From: Streptomyces venezuelae
Lineage (GTDB): Bacteria > Actinomycetota > Actinomycetes > Streptomycetales > Streptomycetaceae
Direction of reading: 5' to 3'
NCBI RefSeq assembly: GCF_008642335.1
Contig: NZ_CP029191.1
Location: 4,774,001 to 4,838,000 of the forward strand
DNA: 64,000 bases
This document shows, piece by piece, positions 12,180-60,052 of this stretch. The notes below the pieces were generated by a model, which saw only the letters and a list, made by a program, of their open reading frames with translations, was not told the origin of the DNA and made no database searches. Position 1 is the first letter of the stretch. Every line of letters begins with the position of its first letter. Both the position numbers and the translations under genes were made by a program.

Positions 12180-14185
12180 CCACGACCACCCTCGCCGTCC
12201 TCGTCCCCCTCCTTCCGTTCCTGGGCGCGGCCGCGGGCCTGCTCCTCGGCCGGCGCGTCCCCGGTCTCGTACGCCCCCTCGCGGTGCTGCCCACGCTGAC
12301 GGCGCTCCTGCTCGCCGTGCTCGTGGCGGTCCGTCAGGGGGGCGGCGCCGGCGGCGGAACGGCTCCGGTCGACGCCGCCACCGAGCTCACCCCGACCGGC
12401 TCGGTCCCCATCGACCTCGCCCTGCACGTCGACGGCTTCGCCGCCCTCGTCGCCGTCCTGGTCGGCGTCGTCGCGTCGTGCGTGCAGATCTACTCGACGG
12501 GCTACCTTCGCGAGGACCCGCGCTACCCCTCGTACGCCGCACTCGTCTCCCTCTTCACCTCCGCGATGCTGCTCGTCGTCTACTCCGGCGACCTGATGGT
12601 GCTCCTGGTCGGCTGGGAGGTCATGGGCATCTGCTCGTACTTCCTGGTCGGCCACTACTGGGAGACCCCCGAGGCGCGCGCCGCCTCCCTCAAGGCCTTC
12701 CTCGTCACCAAGCTCGGCGACGTCCCCTTCCTGATCGGCCTGTTCGCTCTCGCCGCCGACACGGGCTCCTTCCGCATCACGACGATCCTGTCGACGGTCG
12801 CGGACAACGGCCTGGACCACCCGACGCTGATCGCCCTGCTGCTGCTCGCGGGCGTCGCCGGCAAGTCCGCGCAGTTCCCGCTCCACACCTGGCTGCCCGA
12901 CGCGATGGCGGGCCCCACGCCCGTCTCCGCGCTGATCCACGCCGCGACGATGGTCGCCGCCGGTGTCTACTTCGTGGCCCGGCTCCTCCCCGTCTTCGCC
13001 CTCTCCGGCGCGGCCCTGGTCGTCCTCGCCGTCATGGCCGCCGTCACCATGGCCGGGTCGGCCCTCGCCGCGCTCGCCCAGGACGACATCAAGCGCGTCC
13101 TCGCGTACTCGACGATCGGTCAGCTCGGCTACATGACCGGTGCCCTCGCCGTCGGCGACCGCGGTGCCGCCGTCTTCCACCTCCTGTCGCACGGCGCCTT
13201 CAAGGCGCTCCTGTTCCTCGCGGCCGGCGTGATCATCTACGCCGCCGGCACCAACTCGCTGGCCGCCATGTCGCGCATGAGCGGCCTGCGCGACCGCATC
13301 CCCGACGCGTACTGGACGATGACCGTGGCGCTCCTCGCGCTCGCCGCGATCCCGCCGTTCAGCGGCTTCTTCTCCAAGGAGGCCGTGCTCGGCGCCGCCG
13401 AGCACACGGCCACCGGCCACGCCGAGTCCGTGCCCACCGCGGCGGGCTGGATCGTCCTCGTCGCCGGTCTGCTCACCGCCCTCCTCACCGCCGCCTACGC
13501 GACGCGTCTGTGGCTCCTCGCCTTCCACGGCCGGGGAGCGCAGGCCCCCGACCACGGGCGCCAGCCCGTCGCCATGACCGCCGTGCTCTGGGTGCTCGCC
13601 GTGCCCTCCCTCGCCTTCGGTCTCGCCGTCGGAGCCCTGCCGGACTGGTTCGACGGTCACTCGCTCGCCCCGACGCTCACCACCTCCGTGCTCGGCACGG
13701 GCGTCGCGCTCGTCGGCGGCCTGGTCACCTACGGCGCGTGGCGGCACACCACGGCACTCGCCGCCCGCGTCCCGATGGGCGCGGTCGCCGCGACCCCGGA
13801 CGGCGACGGCGCCCAGGTCGAGGCGGAGGCCATCGCCACCCACACGCCCGCGTACGGAGACATCGCCTCGGCACCGGACCCGGCCGACCCCGGCCGTCTG
13901 CTGCTCGGCCCGCTGCACCGGCACGCGGCCGCCGGCTTCCACCTCGACGCCGTCTACACCGTGCTGTTCGTACGCCCCGTCCGCGCCGCGGCCAGCCTGG
14001 TCCGCTTCCTGGACCGCGAGGTCGTCGAGACGTACGTGCGCGGCGCGGGCGCCGCACCCCGCTGGCTCGGCGCGGCCGTCCGCCGCGTGCAGACCGGCAA
14101 CGTGCAGACCTACCTGAGCGCGCTGCTCGCAGGCACGGTCGTCCTGGCCGTCGCCGCCGTCCTCGTCGCCACCGCCGGAGCGTGA
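12176..14185 (+). CDS. nuoL: NADH-quinone oxidoreductase subunit L
   Basis: 669-residue antiporter-like proton-pumping subunit. Visible core: [54 protein letters not shown] with internal breaks, [12 protein letters not shown] and [14 protein letters not shown]. The charged residues of the antiporter fold (Glu in GWE, Lys in GKSAQ, Lys in AFKALLF) are kept. GTG start overlaps the nuoK stop. Confidence 0.95.
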
Positions 14186-18832: not shown

Positions 18833-19674
18833 CCTGCGCCGGAGCCGAAGTACGCTCTCGCCGCGTACGACCCGGAGGTCGCCCCGTACGACGAGATCTG
18901 GGCGCTCTGCGCGGACGCGAAGCACCTGTTCGCCGACCAACTCCCGGACCGGCCGCACCGGCACGAAGAACGTGACGCCCCGTCGGACGCGCTGACAGAA
19001 CCCCCGGTACGGCTGCTCGGCTGCGCACCGCGCGGGGCCCTCAGAGACGCGCTGGAGTCCGGCAGAGGCGACCTCGGTCACGACCGGGTGCTGCGCCTGG
19101 GGAGGCCGGGGCGGCCCCTGCGGCACGCCGTGGAGGGCGAAGTCGTCGCCTGGATCCCCTCCGCGCGCGGACGTGGCCTGGTCGACTTCGCCCTGGACCC
19201 CTGGACCCCTGGACCCTGCGGCCGTCACGCGCCGCCGGAATGGCCTGGGACGCCTGGTGGTCCGGCCGACCCACGGAACCCAACCTCTGGGCGCGCGACG
19301 GCACGGGCGCGGAGGGCCGGTCCCACTGGCTGGCCATCGCGCGCGAGCACGCGAAACAACACACCCCGGCCGACGCCCCCGACCCCACTTACCACCTCGA
19401 CGGCCGCCACATCACCGATGAACCCGCCTTCTACCGCGCACTCGGCGAGGCGGTGCACGGCCCCGGAGGCTACGCCGGACGAAGCGCGGACACGCTCGCT
19501 GACTGCCTCCGCCGAACCACGGACACCCCGTCACCCCGCACCCTGGCCTGGCACACCGCGCACACGGCCCGAACCTGCCTGGGTGTCACGCCCCGCACCG
19601 ACGACCGCACACGGACCTTCGAGGAACTCCTGTCCCTGCTGAGGCAGATGAACATCGAGATGGTCCTGGCCTAG
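18833..19674 (+). pseudogene. Barstar-family protein, broken by frameshift and start loss
   Basis: The N-terminal part (PEPKYALAAYDPEVAPYDEI...) is open from 18833 in one frame. The C-terminal part (MAWDAWWSGRPTEPNLWA..., YHLDGRHITDEPAFYRALGEA, LLRQMNIEMVLA) is in another frame and ends at 19674. The latter resembles the barstar (barnase inhibitor) family. The frames meet at three perfect copies of CTGGACCC (19193-19216). Removing one 8-bp copy joins both halves into ...ALDPWTLRPSRAAGMAWDAWW. No ATG/GTG/TTG lies in frame at the 5' end (CCTGCG where a start is expected), so the start also seems lost. Alternatively the frameshift is an assembly error. Likely an immunity-type relic. Confidence 0.8.
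19193..19216 (+). repeat. 8-bp tandem repeat x3 at frameshift point
   Basis: CTGGACCC at 19193-19200, 19201-19208 and 19209-19216. Eight is not a multiple of three; two copies would restore the barstar-like frame. Confidence 0.95.
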
Positions 19675-19728
19675 CGGCCCGCCCGCCGCCCGGGCGGGAT
19701 TGTCAGTGCCGTGGTCCACGATGAACTC

Positions 19729-20259
19729 ATGACCGACGCCGAGCAGTTGCTGACCCGCATCGCCGCCGAGGCACGCGCCACCCGCCCCTGGGGCTGGGAC
19801 TCCCTGCCCGCCCCCGTGGACGCGGACACGCTGGCCCGCGCGGAGGCGTCCCTGGGCTTCACCCTGCCGCCCCTGCTCGCCGCGCTCTACACCCGCATAG
19901 GAGACGGCGGATTCGGCCCGGAGTACGGCCTGTTGCCGCTGCTCGAAGGCAAGTCGTCCGGAGGCGAGCCGGCCGTCGTCGAGAAGTACCTCGCGATGCG
20001 CGAATCGGACTGGGGCTGGCCCGAGGGCGTGCTGCCGATATCCCACTGGGGCTGCGCGATGTACGCGTGCGTGGACTGCCGCACGGCCGACGGGCAGGTC
20101 CTGCTCTTCGAGCCCAACGGCGGCGACCCCCGGCATGCCTGGTTCGTCGACGCCCCGACCCTCACGGCCTGGCTCACCGCGTGGCTCGACGGCACGGGCT
20201 GGTACGAGGAGGAGAACGACGGCATGGACCTGGAGCCGTGGCAGGACACTCCCGGGTAG
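19729..20259 (+). CDS. SMI1/KNR4 (SUKH) family protein
   Basis: 176 residues from ATG 19729 (182 from GTG 19711). The SUKH signature is visible: ARAEASLGFTLPPLLAALYTRIGDGGFGPEYGLLPL, with breaks, then WPEGVLPISHWGCAMYACVD and VLLFEPNG. SUKH proteins are often immunity proteins of contact-dependent or polymorphic toxins, but many actinomycete members have no known toxin. No toxin gene is adjacent. It lies next to a broken barstar-like gene, another immunity-type fold. TTGTCA at 19700-19705 may be part of a promoter for a nearly leaderless mRNA. Confidence 0.82.
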   Translation: MTDAEQLLTRIAAEARATRPWGWDSLPAPVDADTLARAEASLGFTLPPLLAALYTRIGDGGFGPEYGLLPLLEGKSSGGEPAVVEKYLAMRESDWGWPEGVLPISHWGCAMYACVDCRTADGQVLLFEPNGGDPRHAWFVDAPTLTAWLTAWLDGTGWYEEENDGMDLEPWQDTPG

Positions 20260-21423: not shown

Positions 21424-21505
21424 GGCGGTGTGCCCGAGCGGCCAAAGGGAGCAGACTGTAAATCTGCCGGCTCAGCCTTCCCAGGTTCGAATCCTGGCGC
21501 CGCCA
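21424..21505 (+). tRNA. tRNA-Tyr (GTA)
   Basis: 82-nt class II tRNA with long variable arm. Acceptor GGCGGTG pairs with CGCCGCC; anticodon loop CTGTAAA gives GTA; the T arm has CCAGGTTCGAATCCTGG. CCA is not encoded. A terminator hairpin follows 10 nt downstream. Confidence 0.97.
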
Positions 21506-21514
21506 CATGAAGGT

Positions 21515-21556
21515 AAACCCCCTCCGATCTGCGGAAACGTTGATCTGAGGGGGTTT
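21515..21556 (+). terminator. Terminator after tRNA-Tyr
   Basis: AAACCCCCTC (21515-21524) pairs with GAGGGGGTTT (21547-21556); GATC/GATC can extend the stem inward. It ends in a T-rich tail. Confidence 0.85.
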
Positions 21557-21591
21557 CTTCGTATGCGGTCAGGGCGGGCCTCCGGGCAGCG

Positions 21592-24312
21592 TCAGGGCGG
21601 GCTCAGGCGGCCGCGTACGACCCTCGTGGACTCCGGGAGCAGGTTCCTGCCGATGAGCGTGGCCTCCTCGGGGACACGGAGCGTGAGCAGGCTGCGGACG
21701 CGTTCCAGGGTGCTGAGGTCGATGCTCGGGTGGAGCGTCTCGATGGTGAGCTCGCACAGCTTGGGGAAGAGGCCCAGCCAGTCCCACGTGGCCCCCATGT
21801 CGGCCTCCACCCACAGATGGGTCAGGCGCTGCCCCGGGCACGTCGCCACGAACTCGTCCACCGTGAACTCGCCGGTGATCTTGATGTGGGAGCGGCTGCC
21901 GTAGCTGCGGAGCGCGCGGAGCTCGCGCAGGTTCGACACGGGGAAGTAGAGACCGTCCTCGGCGAGGTGCGCGACCACCTCCTGGCCGTACAGGTCCGTC
22001 TCGTACCGGCCCCACGCGCGTGCCAGCTCATTTCGGACTCGCAGGTCCGGATGGTCGCGGTACTTGGAGAGCAGCTCGATCGCCGCGTCCGTCCCGAGCG
22101 GCGTCGCCGTGAGCACCGTGAAGTACGCCTCGTCGGCCGCCGCCCGGTACGCCTCCTCCTCAGCCGCGGCCTCCGCCCGCTGCAGCACCGTGGCGAACGG
22201 ACCCGGGGCGCTCGGGAGCGGCGGCAGCTCCCGCGGGCCGGGCAGCAGCCCGAGCACGAAGGGCCCGATCGCCGTCAGCGCCCGCGCCTGGTCCGGCGAG
22301 CGGGGCGGGATGAGGGCGGCCGCGCGCTCCTGCACCTCCGCCCGGACCGCCGGCGCCAGCTCGGTCGCGTGCTCCAGGCAGGCCGCCGCCAGGAGGTGCA
22401 GGCGGTCCCTGCCCCGTCGCGAGGTGTCCTCGCGCCGGATCAGGCCCGTGAGGAGCCGCGTGCGCTCCGTGGGCCGCGCGTGGGCCACGGCCATCCTGAT
22501 GACGTCCTCCCACTGGTCCAGGTGCGCGTTGGCGATCAGGAAGTCGAAGTCGAGCTCCTCGACCGCCGCCTTCGCCCCGAGGTAGTCCTGGAAGGTGCGG
22601 TGGACGAAGTCCATGGAGTCCGCGCTCGGCTCCCGGAGCAGGCCACTACGGACGAGCAGATGCTTGTAGACCGCCTCCGGAGTGCCCTGTTCGGCGACCT
22701 TCGGCATGGCGGGCAGGACCTGCCTCAACAGCTCCACCGCGTCGGTGTGGGTCATCTCCGAGCGGCCGTTGCGGATCATCCAATAGGCCAGCTTCTGGAT
22801 CAGCTGGATGTGCTCGGCCTCGCTGACATGGATGGGCCCGCTCTTGTAGACACCGCGTTCGCGGTCACGCCGGAAGAGCAGCATCGAAAGGGCCGCGTCG
22901 TAGATCTCCTTGCGCCCTTCTGGCAGGTACCCGCGGCGGTCCTGGTGCAGCGCGCAGATCAGGCCGCACATAAGAGGGTTGGTCGCGAGCTGGCTCAGAT
23001 CCTGCTGGGCCCGCACCGCACGCAGCAGTTCGGTCGCGTATTGGTCGCTGATGCCCGCCGCCTTGTGCCAGCGGTGGATGAACTCCGCGATGTCGTCGCG
23101 CTTCATGGGCGCGAGATCCAGCTCGGCGAAGTCGTCGTCGGTCAGCCAGCGTTCCCGCACGGCGGACGGCCGCGAGGTGACGAGCCAGCGGTTGTCGGGG
23201 TAGGCGCTCAGGAGCTCCCGCAGCCAGCGGCGGGCGTCGTTGCGGTCGTCCTCGGGGATCTCGTCGATCCCGTCGATCAGGATGAGCCCCCGCCCCGCCT
23301 GCAGCACCCTGTCGATCCACCCGTGCGGCTGGCTGCCTGCGATGGGGCAGTCCACTGCCGACAGGAACTTGTCGGGCGTCGGGAGAGGTGCGCCGCTGCG
23401 CGTGAGAGTGCGCAGAGGGAGGACGATCGGCACGAGACCGTAGAGGTAGAGCAGCTGCTCGTCGAGCGACCGCTTCGCCGTCGAAACCGCGAGCCATTGA
23501 ATGAGGGTGGTTTTGCCGGATCCGGCGAGTCCGCGCAGGAGCACACGGCTGCGGCCCGCCAGGACGTGATCCGCCGGCACCAGGGATGGTGTGCCGCTCA
23601 GCCCGTCGGCTGCCGCGTTCAGCCGCAGATACGCCACGTCGAGCCGCCAGCTCTCCGGCGCGCCCGACAGATCGAGACCGAAGATGCTCAGCTTGCCGTG
23701 CTTGGTCGCGATGTAGTGCGCGTAACGGTCCTCGAAGGGGCCGTCGGCCGGGGACGGGGACCGGGTGATCAGGGAGTCGATCTTCCGGGTCAACTCCTCG
23801 ATGCCGCGGCTCTGTTCCAGCAGGGTGCGCGGGACGAACGTGGAGCGCTGGGTGAAGAAGTTCAGGATGTGCAGGCAGGCCGTGTCGAGGACGCCCGCGT
23901 GCAGGGTCACCGCGTCGTGGGACAGGCCCAGCGTCGCCGTCCTGTTCTGCGCGCGCAGATGCTGGGAGAGCGCCAGATGGCCGAGGCGCACCGCCTGCAC
24001 GTCGTCCATCTCGAGCGTTCCGAGGGACCGCAGCGAGTCGGTGACGGCGTGGATGACGGCCTGCTTCTCGAACGACGGAAGCAACTCCTCCACGCCTGTC
24101 GAGTGCGCGGCCCGCTTCACCAGCTCTTCCGCGATCTTGTACAGATCCTTGTCGGAGAGCGTGCGCTTCTCGCCGCGGAAGGAGACGAGGTGGGCCACTC
24201 GAACGGGCTTGTCGACCAGATCGGCCCCGGGACCCTCGGCCTGGAACAGCTTTCTGATCAGCGGCCCCACGATGCTCGACGCGAGCCGGGCTCCGATCAC
24301 GGCGGGTTCCAT
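21592..24312 (-). CDS. NACHT-domain NTPase, NLR-like, candidate anti-phage protein
   Basis: 906 residues from ATG 24312. An all-helical N-terminal region (1-240; ARLASSIVGPLIRKLFQAEG, FRGEKRTLSDKDLYKIAEEL) is of the kind placed before NACHT in actinomycete proteins (NNH-type). The NACHT ATPase follows: Walker A GLAGSGKTT at 261-269, Walker B LILIDGIDEI at 343-352, and WLVTSRPSAVRERW as sensor region. Then come helical segments (QLATNPLMCGLICAL, FVHRTFQDYLGAKAAVEE) and a C-terminal leucine-rich stretch (LTHLWVEADMGATW, LGLFPKLCELTIETL, LSTLERVRSLLTLRV). Bacterial NACHT proteins include proven phage-defence NLRs; this one's function is unknown. It lies immediately downstream of tRNA-Tyr on the opposite strand. 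A TATCCT element lies 7 nt before the ATG. Confidence 0.88.
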   Translation of the reverse strand: MEPAVIGARLASSIVGPLIRKLFQAEGPGADLVDKPVRVAHLVSFRGEKRTLSDKDLYKIAEELVKRAAHSTGVEELLPSFEKQAVIHAVTDSLRSLGTLEMDDVQAVRLGHLALSQHLRAQNRTATLGLSHDAVTLHAGVLDTACLHILNFFTQRSTFVPRTLLEQSRGIEELTRKIDSLITRSPSPADGPFEDRYAHYIATKHGKLSIFGLDLSGAPESWRLDVAYLRLNAAADGLSGTPSLVPADHVLAGRSRVLLRGLAGSGKTTLIQWLAVSTAKRSLDEQLLYLYGLVPIVLPLRTLTRSGAPLPTPDKFLSAVDCPIAGSQPHGWIDRVLQAGRGLILIDGIDEIPEDDRNDARRWLRELLSAYPDNRWLVTSRPSAVRERWLTDDDFAELDLAPMKRDDIAEFIHRWHKAAGISDQYATELLRAVRAQQDLSQLATNPLMCGLICALHQDRRGYLPEGRKEIYDAALSMLLFRRDRERGVYKSGPIHVSEAEHIQLIQKLAYWMIRNGRSEMTHTDAVELLRQVLPAMPKVAEQGTPEAVYKHLLVRSGLLREPSADSMDFVHRTFQDYLGAKAAVEELDFDFLIANAHLDQWEDVIRMAVAHARPTERTRLLTGLIRREDTSRRGRDRLHLLAAACLEHATELAPAVRAEVQERAAALIPPRSPDQARALTAIGPFVLGLLPGPRELPPLPSAPGPFATVLQRAEAAAEEEAYRAAADEAYFTVLTATPLGTDAAIELLSKYRDHPDLRVRNELARAWGRYETDLYGQEVVAHLAEDGLYFPVSNLRELRALRSYGSRSHIKITGEFTVDEFVATCPGQRLTHLWVEADMGATWDWLGLFPKLCELTIETLHPSIDLSTLERVRSLLTLRVPEEATLIGRNLLPESTRVVRGRLSPP

Positions 24313-24349
24313 GCGGGTCAGGATAGGGCTGCGCCCGTGCGTGGGGCGG

Positions 24350-24381
24350 CCAACTGGCGTCATCAGTGGCGTAGTTGGCGT
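24350..24381 (-). promoter_or_regulatory. Repeat cluster upstream of the NACHT gene
   Basis: CCAACT (24350-24355) and AGTTGG (24373-24378) form an inverted repeat. TGGCGT occurs three times (24355, 24367, 24376). It lies 38-69 bp upstream of the ATG, where a regulator could bind. Functional assignment is inference. Confidence 0.4.
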
Positions 24382-24509
24382 ATGCCTCGTTGACCTGCGG
24401 GAAGTGTGAGGAACCAGGCCGGGTTTTTTCGTACGTGCGTCCGGCGCGCGGCGGTACGTTCCGCGCGGGCCGACGAGCTTCAGGTGTCGGCGATGGGCAC
24501 ACTGATCAC

Positions 24510-58567: not shown

Positions 58568-60052
58568 TCAGTCCCGGTCCCACGCCCCGCCCAGCGCCCC
58601 CAACCGCTCCCCGTACTCCACCGCCTCCACCCACTCCGGAGGCCACCCCGACGGGCCTCGGTGCGCTCCCGCCAGCGCCCCCGCCAGGGCCGCCGTCGCC
58701 GCCGAGGGGCCGGAGGTGTGCGCCGCCCGGCGCAGGGCCTGGCGCGGGTGCGCCCCCGTCGACAGGAACGCGTACAGGGCGCCGCCCAGCACCGTCTCCG
58801 CCGTCCACGCCGTACCCACCGCCGCGCCCGGATCCGTGTCGCTCCCCAGCGCCGCCTCCACCGCGTCCAGCACCGCCACGCACTCGTCCCAGCCCGCCGC
58901 GATGAACGACACCGCCTCGGCCCGGGGCGCCAGGTCGCCCAGCCAGTCCGCGCGGTACGTGTGGCGGGACGCCGACGCGTACAGACGCAGCTCGCCGAGC
59001 AGGTCGGCAGGCTTGCAGCGGTGCCTCAGCAGGTCCACCGCGTGCGACGCCAGGTCACTTGCCGCCAGGGCTGTGGGGTGGGCGTGGGTGAGGGCTGCCT
59101 GTAGTTGGGCGATTCCCGAGCGTTGGTCGGGGGTCAGGTACGGCGCCAGGCCCACCGTCGCCGCTCGTACCACCGCCGCGCAGCCCTTCGAGCCGGTCGC
59201 CGTCGCCTGTTGCCAGGGGACCGGGGTCGACAGCGCCTCGCAGGATTCCCGCGTCGTACGGCCGGGGGAGCGGTCGTTGTCCGGGGAGCGGTGCCAACCG
59301 ATCAGGTGGGTGCGCAGGGCCGTCGTCACCGCCCCGGGGGTCAGCCAGGGTGGGGCAGGGACGGCGCCCCGTACCGTGAGCGCCTGCCTCGCCTCTGCCT
59401 CCGGCAACGGGGCCCGTACCGCCACCTCCGCCAGCGCCTCCCCTACCGCCAGCGTCAGCTGCGTCTGGTCCGAGACCCGTACCGTGCCGTCGGAGGAGAG
59501 AGGGAGCTCCATCGATTGCCAGGGGCCGTAGACGGCGGTGATGCGGTCCAGCCCCAGCCCGGAGAGCGGGCGGCCCATCGCGTCGCCGATCGCCAGGCCC
59601 TGGAGCGCCGCACGGCACGACCTCCACACGGTGCGGCGGTAGGGCTGGTCCGCCAGGGCGTAGAGGGAGGCCAGGTCCGGGGAGGTCGTGAGTGAGCCCG
59701 GGAGCGCCCCCAGGGCCTCGCTGGTCAGCTCCTGCAGCACTCTCGTCGGCGGTACGCCCCGCTCCTTGCCGGCCCGTAGGCGGCGCAGCCACACGCCGCC
59801 CGCGTTCACCGCCCGCGTCCCCGCGTCCCTCCGTATGATCCAGCCCGCCGCGTCGTCCTCGTCGCACGCCCACACGTAGGTGGTGACGGTGCCGTCGTCG
59901 TCCGCCACGGCCACGTACCGGACCGGGCGGGTCGTCTCCTCCGCGTACTCGGGCGGGCCGCTCACGTATGAGAAGGCCACGTCCTCCTCGAAGCGGGGGT
60001 TGATGTACTTCCGGGGGAGGAAGCGGGGGGCGGGGGAGGTTGCGTCGCTCAC
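58568..60052 (-). CDS. ADP-ribosylglycohydrolase-family protein, altered metal site
   Basis: 494 residues from GTG 60052. An N-terminal extension (1-140; FLPRKYINPRFEEDVAFSYV) precedes the all-helical ARH domain: GLAIGDAMGRPLSGLGLDR at 152-170, then SDQTQLTLAVGEAL from 194, TGSKGCAAVVRAATVGL, and SDTDPGAAVGTAW at 404-416. The usual TDDT motif reads SDQT, so one metal-ligand Asp is replaced by Gln. The C-terminal DxD is kept. It may be an altered hydrolase or a binding protein. Confidence 0.82.
   Translation of the reverse strand: MSDATSPAPRFLPRKYINPRFEEDVAFSYVSGPPEYAEETTRPVRYVAVADDDGTVTTYVWACDEDDAAGWIIRRDAGTRAVNAGGVWLRRLRAGKERGVPPTRVLQELTSEALGALPGSLTTSPDLASLYALADQPYRRTVWRSCRAALQGLAIGDAMGRPLSGLGLDRITAVYGPWQSMELPLSSDGTVRVSDQTQLTLAVGEALAEVAVRAPLPEAEARQALTVRGAVPAPPWLTPGAVTTALRTHLIGWHRSPDNDRSPGRTTRESCEALSTPVPWQQATATGSKGCAAVVRAATVGLAPYLTPDQRSGIAQLQAALTHAHPTALAASDLASHAVDLLRHRCKPADLLGELRLYASASRHTYRADWLGDLAPRAEAVSFIAAGWDECVAVLDAVEAALGSDTDPGAAVGTAWTAETVLGGALYAFLSTGAHPRQALRRAAHTSGPSAATAALAGALAGAHRGPSGWPPEWVEAVEYGERLGALGGAWDRD

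Follow-up and report, generated by a model that had tools for sequence, protein, structure and literature searches.

What does a solitary gene for an NLR-like NTPase do directly behind a tRNA gene of a Streptomyces chromosome, and how did it come to be there? The gene lies in the window (the whole 64-kb stretch of DNA that was analysed, part of a host genome of 8.05 Mb in a single contig), and the reading preferred here, to which a probability of roughly 0.7 is assigned, is that of a single-gene bacterial NLR directed against phages or mobile elements, which would have been acquired horizontally at an SLP1-type tRNA-Tyr attachment (att) site and passed on by vertical descent under purifying selection. 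The frame is intact, with an ATG start at 24312 and a stop codon at 21594–21592 of the minus strand, and comprises the following parts:

21592..24312, minus strand: NNH1-NACHT-LRR gene, 906 aa (ORF calling, Pfam, homologue alignment)
23767..24294, minus strand: NNH1 helical N-terminal domain, residues 7–182, presumed effector or adaptor (Pfam PF22733, E 3.2e-52)
23059..23547, minus strand: NACHT NTPase domain, residues 256–418 (Pfam PF05729, E 6.2e-29)
23506..23532, minus strand: Walker A GLAGSGKTT, residues 261–269 (K267 and T269 invariant in a 20-sequence alignment)
23257..23286, minus strand: Walker B LILIDGIDEI, residues 343–352 (D347, D350 and E351 invariant in the same alignment)
22573..22608, minus strand: winged-helix histidine motif FVHRTFQDYLGA, residues 569–580, with H571 (invariant in the same alignment)

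The initial annotation had claimed a helical N-terminus, possibly of the NNH type, ahead of an intact NACHT module. Both parts of this claim are borne out, the NNH1 and NACHT scores lying well beyond the Pfam cut-offs and both nucleotide-binding motifs being present with their key residues conserved. Across the alignment, which holds the window protein and 19 others, G266, K267, T269, D347, D350, E351 and H571 occur without variation, the last of these within what we take to be the winged-helix histidine motif with a known role in STAND proteins. No close match among the solved NACHT proteins was found. The best E-values of the family profile belong to midasin AAA chains (E 1e-9, over 226–289); over the NACHT region it also matches chain 5irl (E 6e-6), listed as an "uncharacterized protein" and presumably of the rabbit NOD2 type, and the NLRP2 chain 9l4k (E 0.0026). 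PADLOC v2.0.0 (2023) gave no convincing model for the window protein, the best match having an E of 0.0046 over 32 residues, and among five relatives it returned short P-loop matches in two (E 3e-5 to 6e-4) and none in three.

The remaining part of the protein is its C-terminus:

21643..21915, minus strand: short LRR-like C-terminus, about residues 800–890, the fastest-evolving part (hhalign, dN/dS; limits set by eye)

A leucine-rich stretch had been proposed here, and the proposal holds as far as homology is concerned. A profile built from seven close C-termini of the window type aligns to the C-termini of six family members from clpC loci (hhalign, E 8.8e-30), and the profile of these six in turn matches solved LRR proteins, internalin being the best (E 2.8e-10); the window protein is thus credited with an LRR, if a short one of about three repeats as counted by eye. 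What the proposal lacks is a Pfam LRR match in the window protein itself. The profile of the seven close C-termini matched no PDB chain, and LRR_4 was seen below the Pfam cut-off in three of nine relatives scanned (E 1e-5 to 1e-3) and was absent in six. With an LRR-homologous end behind NNH1 and NACHT, the likeness in the order of parts (effector, NACHT, LRR) to animal NLRs, pointed out from the beginning, is upheld. The idea that the C-terminus is unrelated to those of the other copies was rejected: many matches stopped at residue 696, but several extend to 860–904, which indicates divergence and not a swap of the C-terminus in those close relatives.

Relative to the three orthologues at the tRNA-Tyr site, dN/dS amounts to 0.08 for NACHT, 0.12–0.13 for NNH1 and 0.21–0.24 for the C-terminus, the latter rising to 0.43–0.61 against five more distant homologues. 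The gene is under purifying selection, and its C-terminus is the part fastest to change, as expected for a STAND sensor. This constraint, effective across all domains (0.08–0.24), and a frame open in four species weigh against a functionless gene that a decayed element left behind in the host as a passenger, selfish or inactive; its accessory character, its position at a hotspot and the lack of a partner gene would suit such a passenger, which is nevertheless extremely improbable.

The second half of the question concerns the place of insertion, for which four further features are needed:

21424..21506, plus strand: tRNA-Tyr(GTA), the attachment-site gene of SLP1-type integrative elements (ARAGORN; SLP1 comparison)
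21456..21576, plus strand: att region, the 3' part of tRNA-Tyr with its terminator hairpin, found at both ends of the element in genome G247 (blastn)
21567..24508, no strand: inserted cassette of 2942 bp, absent from the sister genomes G123 and G280 (flank mapping)
24393..24434, plus strand: possible attR remnant, left from the displaced host terminator, at the far cassette end (nhmmer, E 0.78, weak)

The gene had been described as standing alone directly behind a tRNA, and so it does: 85 bp separate tRNA-Tyr from the NACHT stop codon, the two genes are convergent, and NACHT is the one gene that the cassette contains. The tRNA matters because it is the SLP1-type att site. In G123 (L042), which has no cassette, window positions 21566 and 24509 are only 33 bp apart, and in G280 (L043), which has no NACHT gene, the distance between them is 6 bp, beyond a 16.7-kb insert with the same kind of repeat. 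From this flank mapping it follows that the cassette has its near boundary where the att repeat ends and its far boundary before the next gene; it is inserted at the tRNA-Tyr att, and the tRNA is intact (ARAGORN, flank mapping). Because the open reading frames of 21567..24508 include no integrase or transfer gene, and no replication gene either, the cassette was ruled out as a whole integrative element. As a separate observation, ARAGORN reported no tRNA-Tyr at the site in G123 (L042 about 1330–1410), where the gene lacks its anticodon part, and in G115 (L050), perhaps an artefact since these are draft assemblies.

An integrative element is found at the same site in G247, where 11 kb of DNA (L041 1304–12399) have been integrated inside the tRNA-Tyr att, between the tRNA and the NACHT gene, with an att repeat of 121 bp and an exact 24-mer of the att region at L041 1304 and again at 12376. 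It encodes RepSA, FtsK/SpoIIIE and NUDIX proteins, and one further protein matches an integrase below threshold. The NACHT gene of G247 is intact and lies outside the element, just past the second att copy. Two copies of the tRNA 3' end are present in 4 of the 30 fetched yajQ loci (G247, G280, G065 and G218; L041, L043, L075 and L077), and the tRNA-Tyr site is therefore regarded as in use. The locus offers a case of an NLR-type gene that persists beside a landing site of integrative elements while the elements come and go. Over its hairpin, the window's own tRNA-Tyr terminator (21507–21570) matches base for base the one at attL of the G247 element; two bases distinguish it from the copy next to NACHT in G081 and G093. 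An earlier element may have left this footprint.

At the far end of the cassette, no copy of the att repeat (attR) was found in the 64-kb window. The best match of a terminator profile off the att sites is at 24393–24434, with a counterpart of E 3 in the same place in S. atriruber (G081) and none in G093 and G247 (nhmmer), and in the direct comparison the resemblance between att and the far cassette end is equalled by 2% of shuffles and by 12 of 610 window segments. The cassette likely arrived as cargo of an integrative element; given the missing integrase, the lack of a clear attR and the weakness of a relic (E 0.78) that G093 and G247 do not share, we infer this from its position.

The NACHT gene occupies the tRNA-Tyr/yajQ site in 4 of 31 loci and is absent from 27, the sample being the window and 30 fetched loci picked mainly by YajQ identity, a non-random choice biased to near relatives. 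Presence at the yajQ–tRNA-Tyr–NACHT locus is accordingly patchy, and a gene fixed and syntenic in all Streptomyces, the case initially named as contrary to a defence role, is rejected by the 27 loci lacking it. Of 295 same-genus genomes, 204 have an NNH1-NACHT homologue at E ≤ 1e-30, for the most part beside clpC and not at this site; full-length matches of at least 79% are confined to five of the 295, the window's own counted. A class-wide sample held NNH1 in 17 of 246 genomes, 12 of the 17 being Streptomyces. Matching plasmid records number 127 (21 from Streptomyces, one with at least 80% query coverage), a phage collection yielded two matches, both distant and partial, and a scan of viral contigs found no NNH1-NACHT relative.

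In the gene tree, the four tRNA-Tyr copies form one clade (SH-aLRT 99), nested in a larger, well-supported clade whose copies stand alone at unrelated loci, and in the host tree the four hosts are grouped apart from G123 and G280 (UFBoot 84), the window's host pairing with G081 at 99. Both trees fit a single acquisition in an ancestor of four related Streptomyces species followed by vertical descent, which would be the simplest history. One member of the wider clade, in Streptomyces sp. AJS327, has a macro-domain-like gene (named by eye) beside it at L085 8688–9263.

Might the gene police conjugative elements and not phages, either by limiting incoming integrative elements or as an element-borne exclusion gene that was left behind? 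Its location at an SLP1-type att would be in keeping with this, as are a Frankia element annotated with a NACHT-domain NTPase (PMC3218068) and the common occurrence of conjugal immunity genes (Pif, NUDIX) in such elements. However, the element of G247 has been integrated right beside an intact NACHT copy, so the tRNA-Tyr site is unprotected there, and the other clade members (nine loci) lie in unrelated places with no tRNA gene in the fetched stretch except a tRNA-Pro about 7 kb off in G044. We regard this alternative as unlikely.

A "patch with immunity-type genes" had been claimed, which is literally so, a Barstar-like gene (19240–19674) and a SUKH-1 (SMI1/KNR4) gene (19711–20259) being recognised by Pfam; the claim is weak in that both belong to toxin-immunity families and stand on the other side of yajQ. 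The other neighbours scanned are metabolic, regulatory or respiratory-chain genes or have no assignment. Farther away, a gene of the ADP-ribosylglycohydrolase family was noted at 58568–60052 (Pfam).

The family is most often found beside clpC. The host genome holds three other strong NNH1-NACHT genes, arranged in tandem directly after clpC, convergent with it, and beside a gene that we take to be lsr2-like:

G000:C1:4528727-4542103 (L064 2728–16103): three tandem NNH1-NACHT genes behind clpC, and the lsr2-like gene

Among the matches listed, 51 of 60 genomes show a NACHT match, in one or more copies, no more than 10 kb from clpC, a count that favours close NACHT and close ClpC matches since only genomes among the matches listed for both proteins enter it. 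The median gap from clpC to the matched part of NACHT is 1,065 bp in these 51 genomes; in the nine others of that set, the nearest NACHT is megabases away (two) or none is on the clpC contig (seven). Twenty clpC loci chosen from genomes with no listed clpC-adjacent NACHT comprised 17 empty ones, two with fragments (decayed NACHT remnants behind clpC at L135 5935–6811 and L138 5319–5495, genomes G133 and G254) and one long divergent match. An invariably occupied clpC site is thereby rejected, and clpC is best described as a preferred yet optional site, adjacent in 51 of 60 genomes among the matches listed but empty in 17 of these 20. A row of the gene tree was labelled "clpC" when that gene lay at most about 9 kb away on the fetched stretch, and owing to this rule clpC clusters also include some rows that carry the label "other" (L104, L110).

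Streptomyces are rich in STAND regulators. The gene could be one that signals in development or secondary metabolism, as other NTPase regulators of the genus do, with no part in defence. The abundance of the family (the 204 of 295 genomes above), usually beside clpC, would be expected of such a regulator. Opposed to it are the Pfam scan, which found no DNA-binding domain in the window protein, the patchy occurrence, with some clpC sites, too, empty or decayed, and the fast evolution of the C-terminus; a regulatory role is therefore considered quite unlikely.

The clpC linkage has also suggested, by analogy, that the Streptomyces NNH1-NACHT-LRR proteins might serve to guard the ClpC unfoldase or protein quality control, a proposal that we rate as very unlikely. 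Family members most often stand immediately downstream of clpC, convergent with it, next to an lsr2-like gene and in one to three copies; mobile relatives, the window gene among them, would bring this guarding role to att sites in other places. The NACHT proteins would then respond to phages that hijack or block ClpC, much as phage sensing by bNACHT25 of E. coli requires the chaperone DnaJ; the authors of the bNACHT25 work suggest that chaperone guarding may be general (PMC12169576, available part). A shared insertion hotspot explains the linkage equally well. The clpC-linked home of the family does provide a concrete and testable hypothesis of chaperone guarding. The literature covered (titles and abstract openings, with few subscription papers) contained no paper on NNH1, and none on Streptomyces NACHT genes adjacent to clpC.

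We return to the preferred reading, a defence switch. The probable task of the gene is to protect the cell from phages or other invaders. At rest, the NACHT module would be nucleotide-bound and off, restrained by the LRR end. A cue from a phage or mobile element, acting directly or via a disturbed host process, would be sensed through the fast-evolving LRR C-terminus; the NACHT modules would then oligomerise and bring the helical NNH1 domains together, and clustered NNH1, by itself or through a partner, might halt growth or kill the infected compartment. Horizontal transfer into the SLP1-type tRNA-Tyr att of an ancestor of the four Streptomyces species, with vertical inheritance afterwards, would account for the present distribution. 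The scheme follows that given for bNACHT proteins, with C-terminal sensing, central oligomerisation and an N-terminal effector, in a study which, in the part available, reports bacterial NACHT proteins, some with LRRs, as anti-phage (PMC12169576). Counting against defence, NNH1 is without a recognised catalytic function, and no phage phenotype for any NNH1 protein was found in the literature covered. The protein brings to the bacterial NLRs an effector type as yet uncharacterised, NNH1, joined to an LRR that is short yet real, to judge from homology, and does so in Streptomyces, whose genetics are easy and whose phages are numerous.

Among known systems, the anti-phage bNACHT proteins share with the window protein an N-terminal domain, a central NACHT, a C-terminal sensor and a single-gene, accessory character, and proteins joining NACHT and LRR in one frame have been termed bona fide bacterial NLRs (PMC12169576). 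The four bNACHTs tested there, as described in the available part of that paper, have a PD-(D/E)XK or no recognisable effector and NCH1 or SNaCT C-termini, whereas the window protein has NNH1 and a short LRR. The animal NLRs NOD2, NLRP2 and NLRP7 show the same layout of NACHT and LRR; in the window protein the LRR is shorter and NNH1 takes the place of CARD or PYD. With the NTP-dependent conflict systems of multicellular bacteria the locus shares the theme of STAND NTPases in filamentous bacteria, but those systems, as far as the available part of PMC7159879 describes them, are multi-gene (vWA/MoxR or EAD), and no such partner genes were seen at the window locus. The bacterial NLR kind is already known, and it is the att-site history and the clpC linkage that are worth a specialist's look. 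In S. coelicolor, SLP1 integrates into tRNA-Tyr; the tRNA is made whole again at attL, and at attR there remains a 112-bp repeat (PMC3009677, available part), about equal in length to the 121 bp of the G247 element. Unlike SLP1, the window cassette is devoid of integrase, replication and transfer genes and of a clear attR. What the two have in common is the tRNA-Tyr site and, on the reading preferred here, a defence-type cargo gene, which in SLP1 is the type IV restriction enzyme ScoMcrA, carried near attR (PMC3009677).
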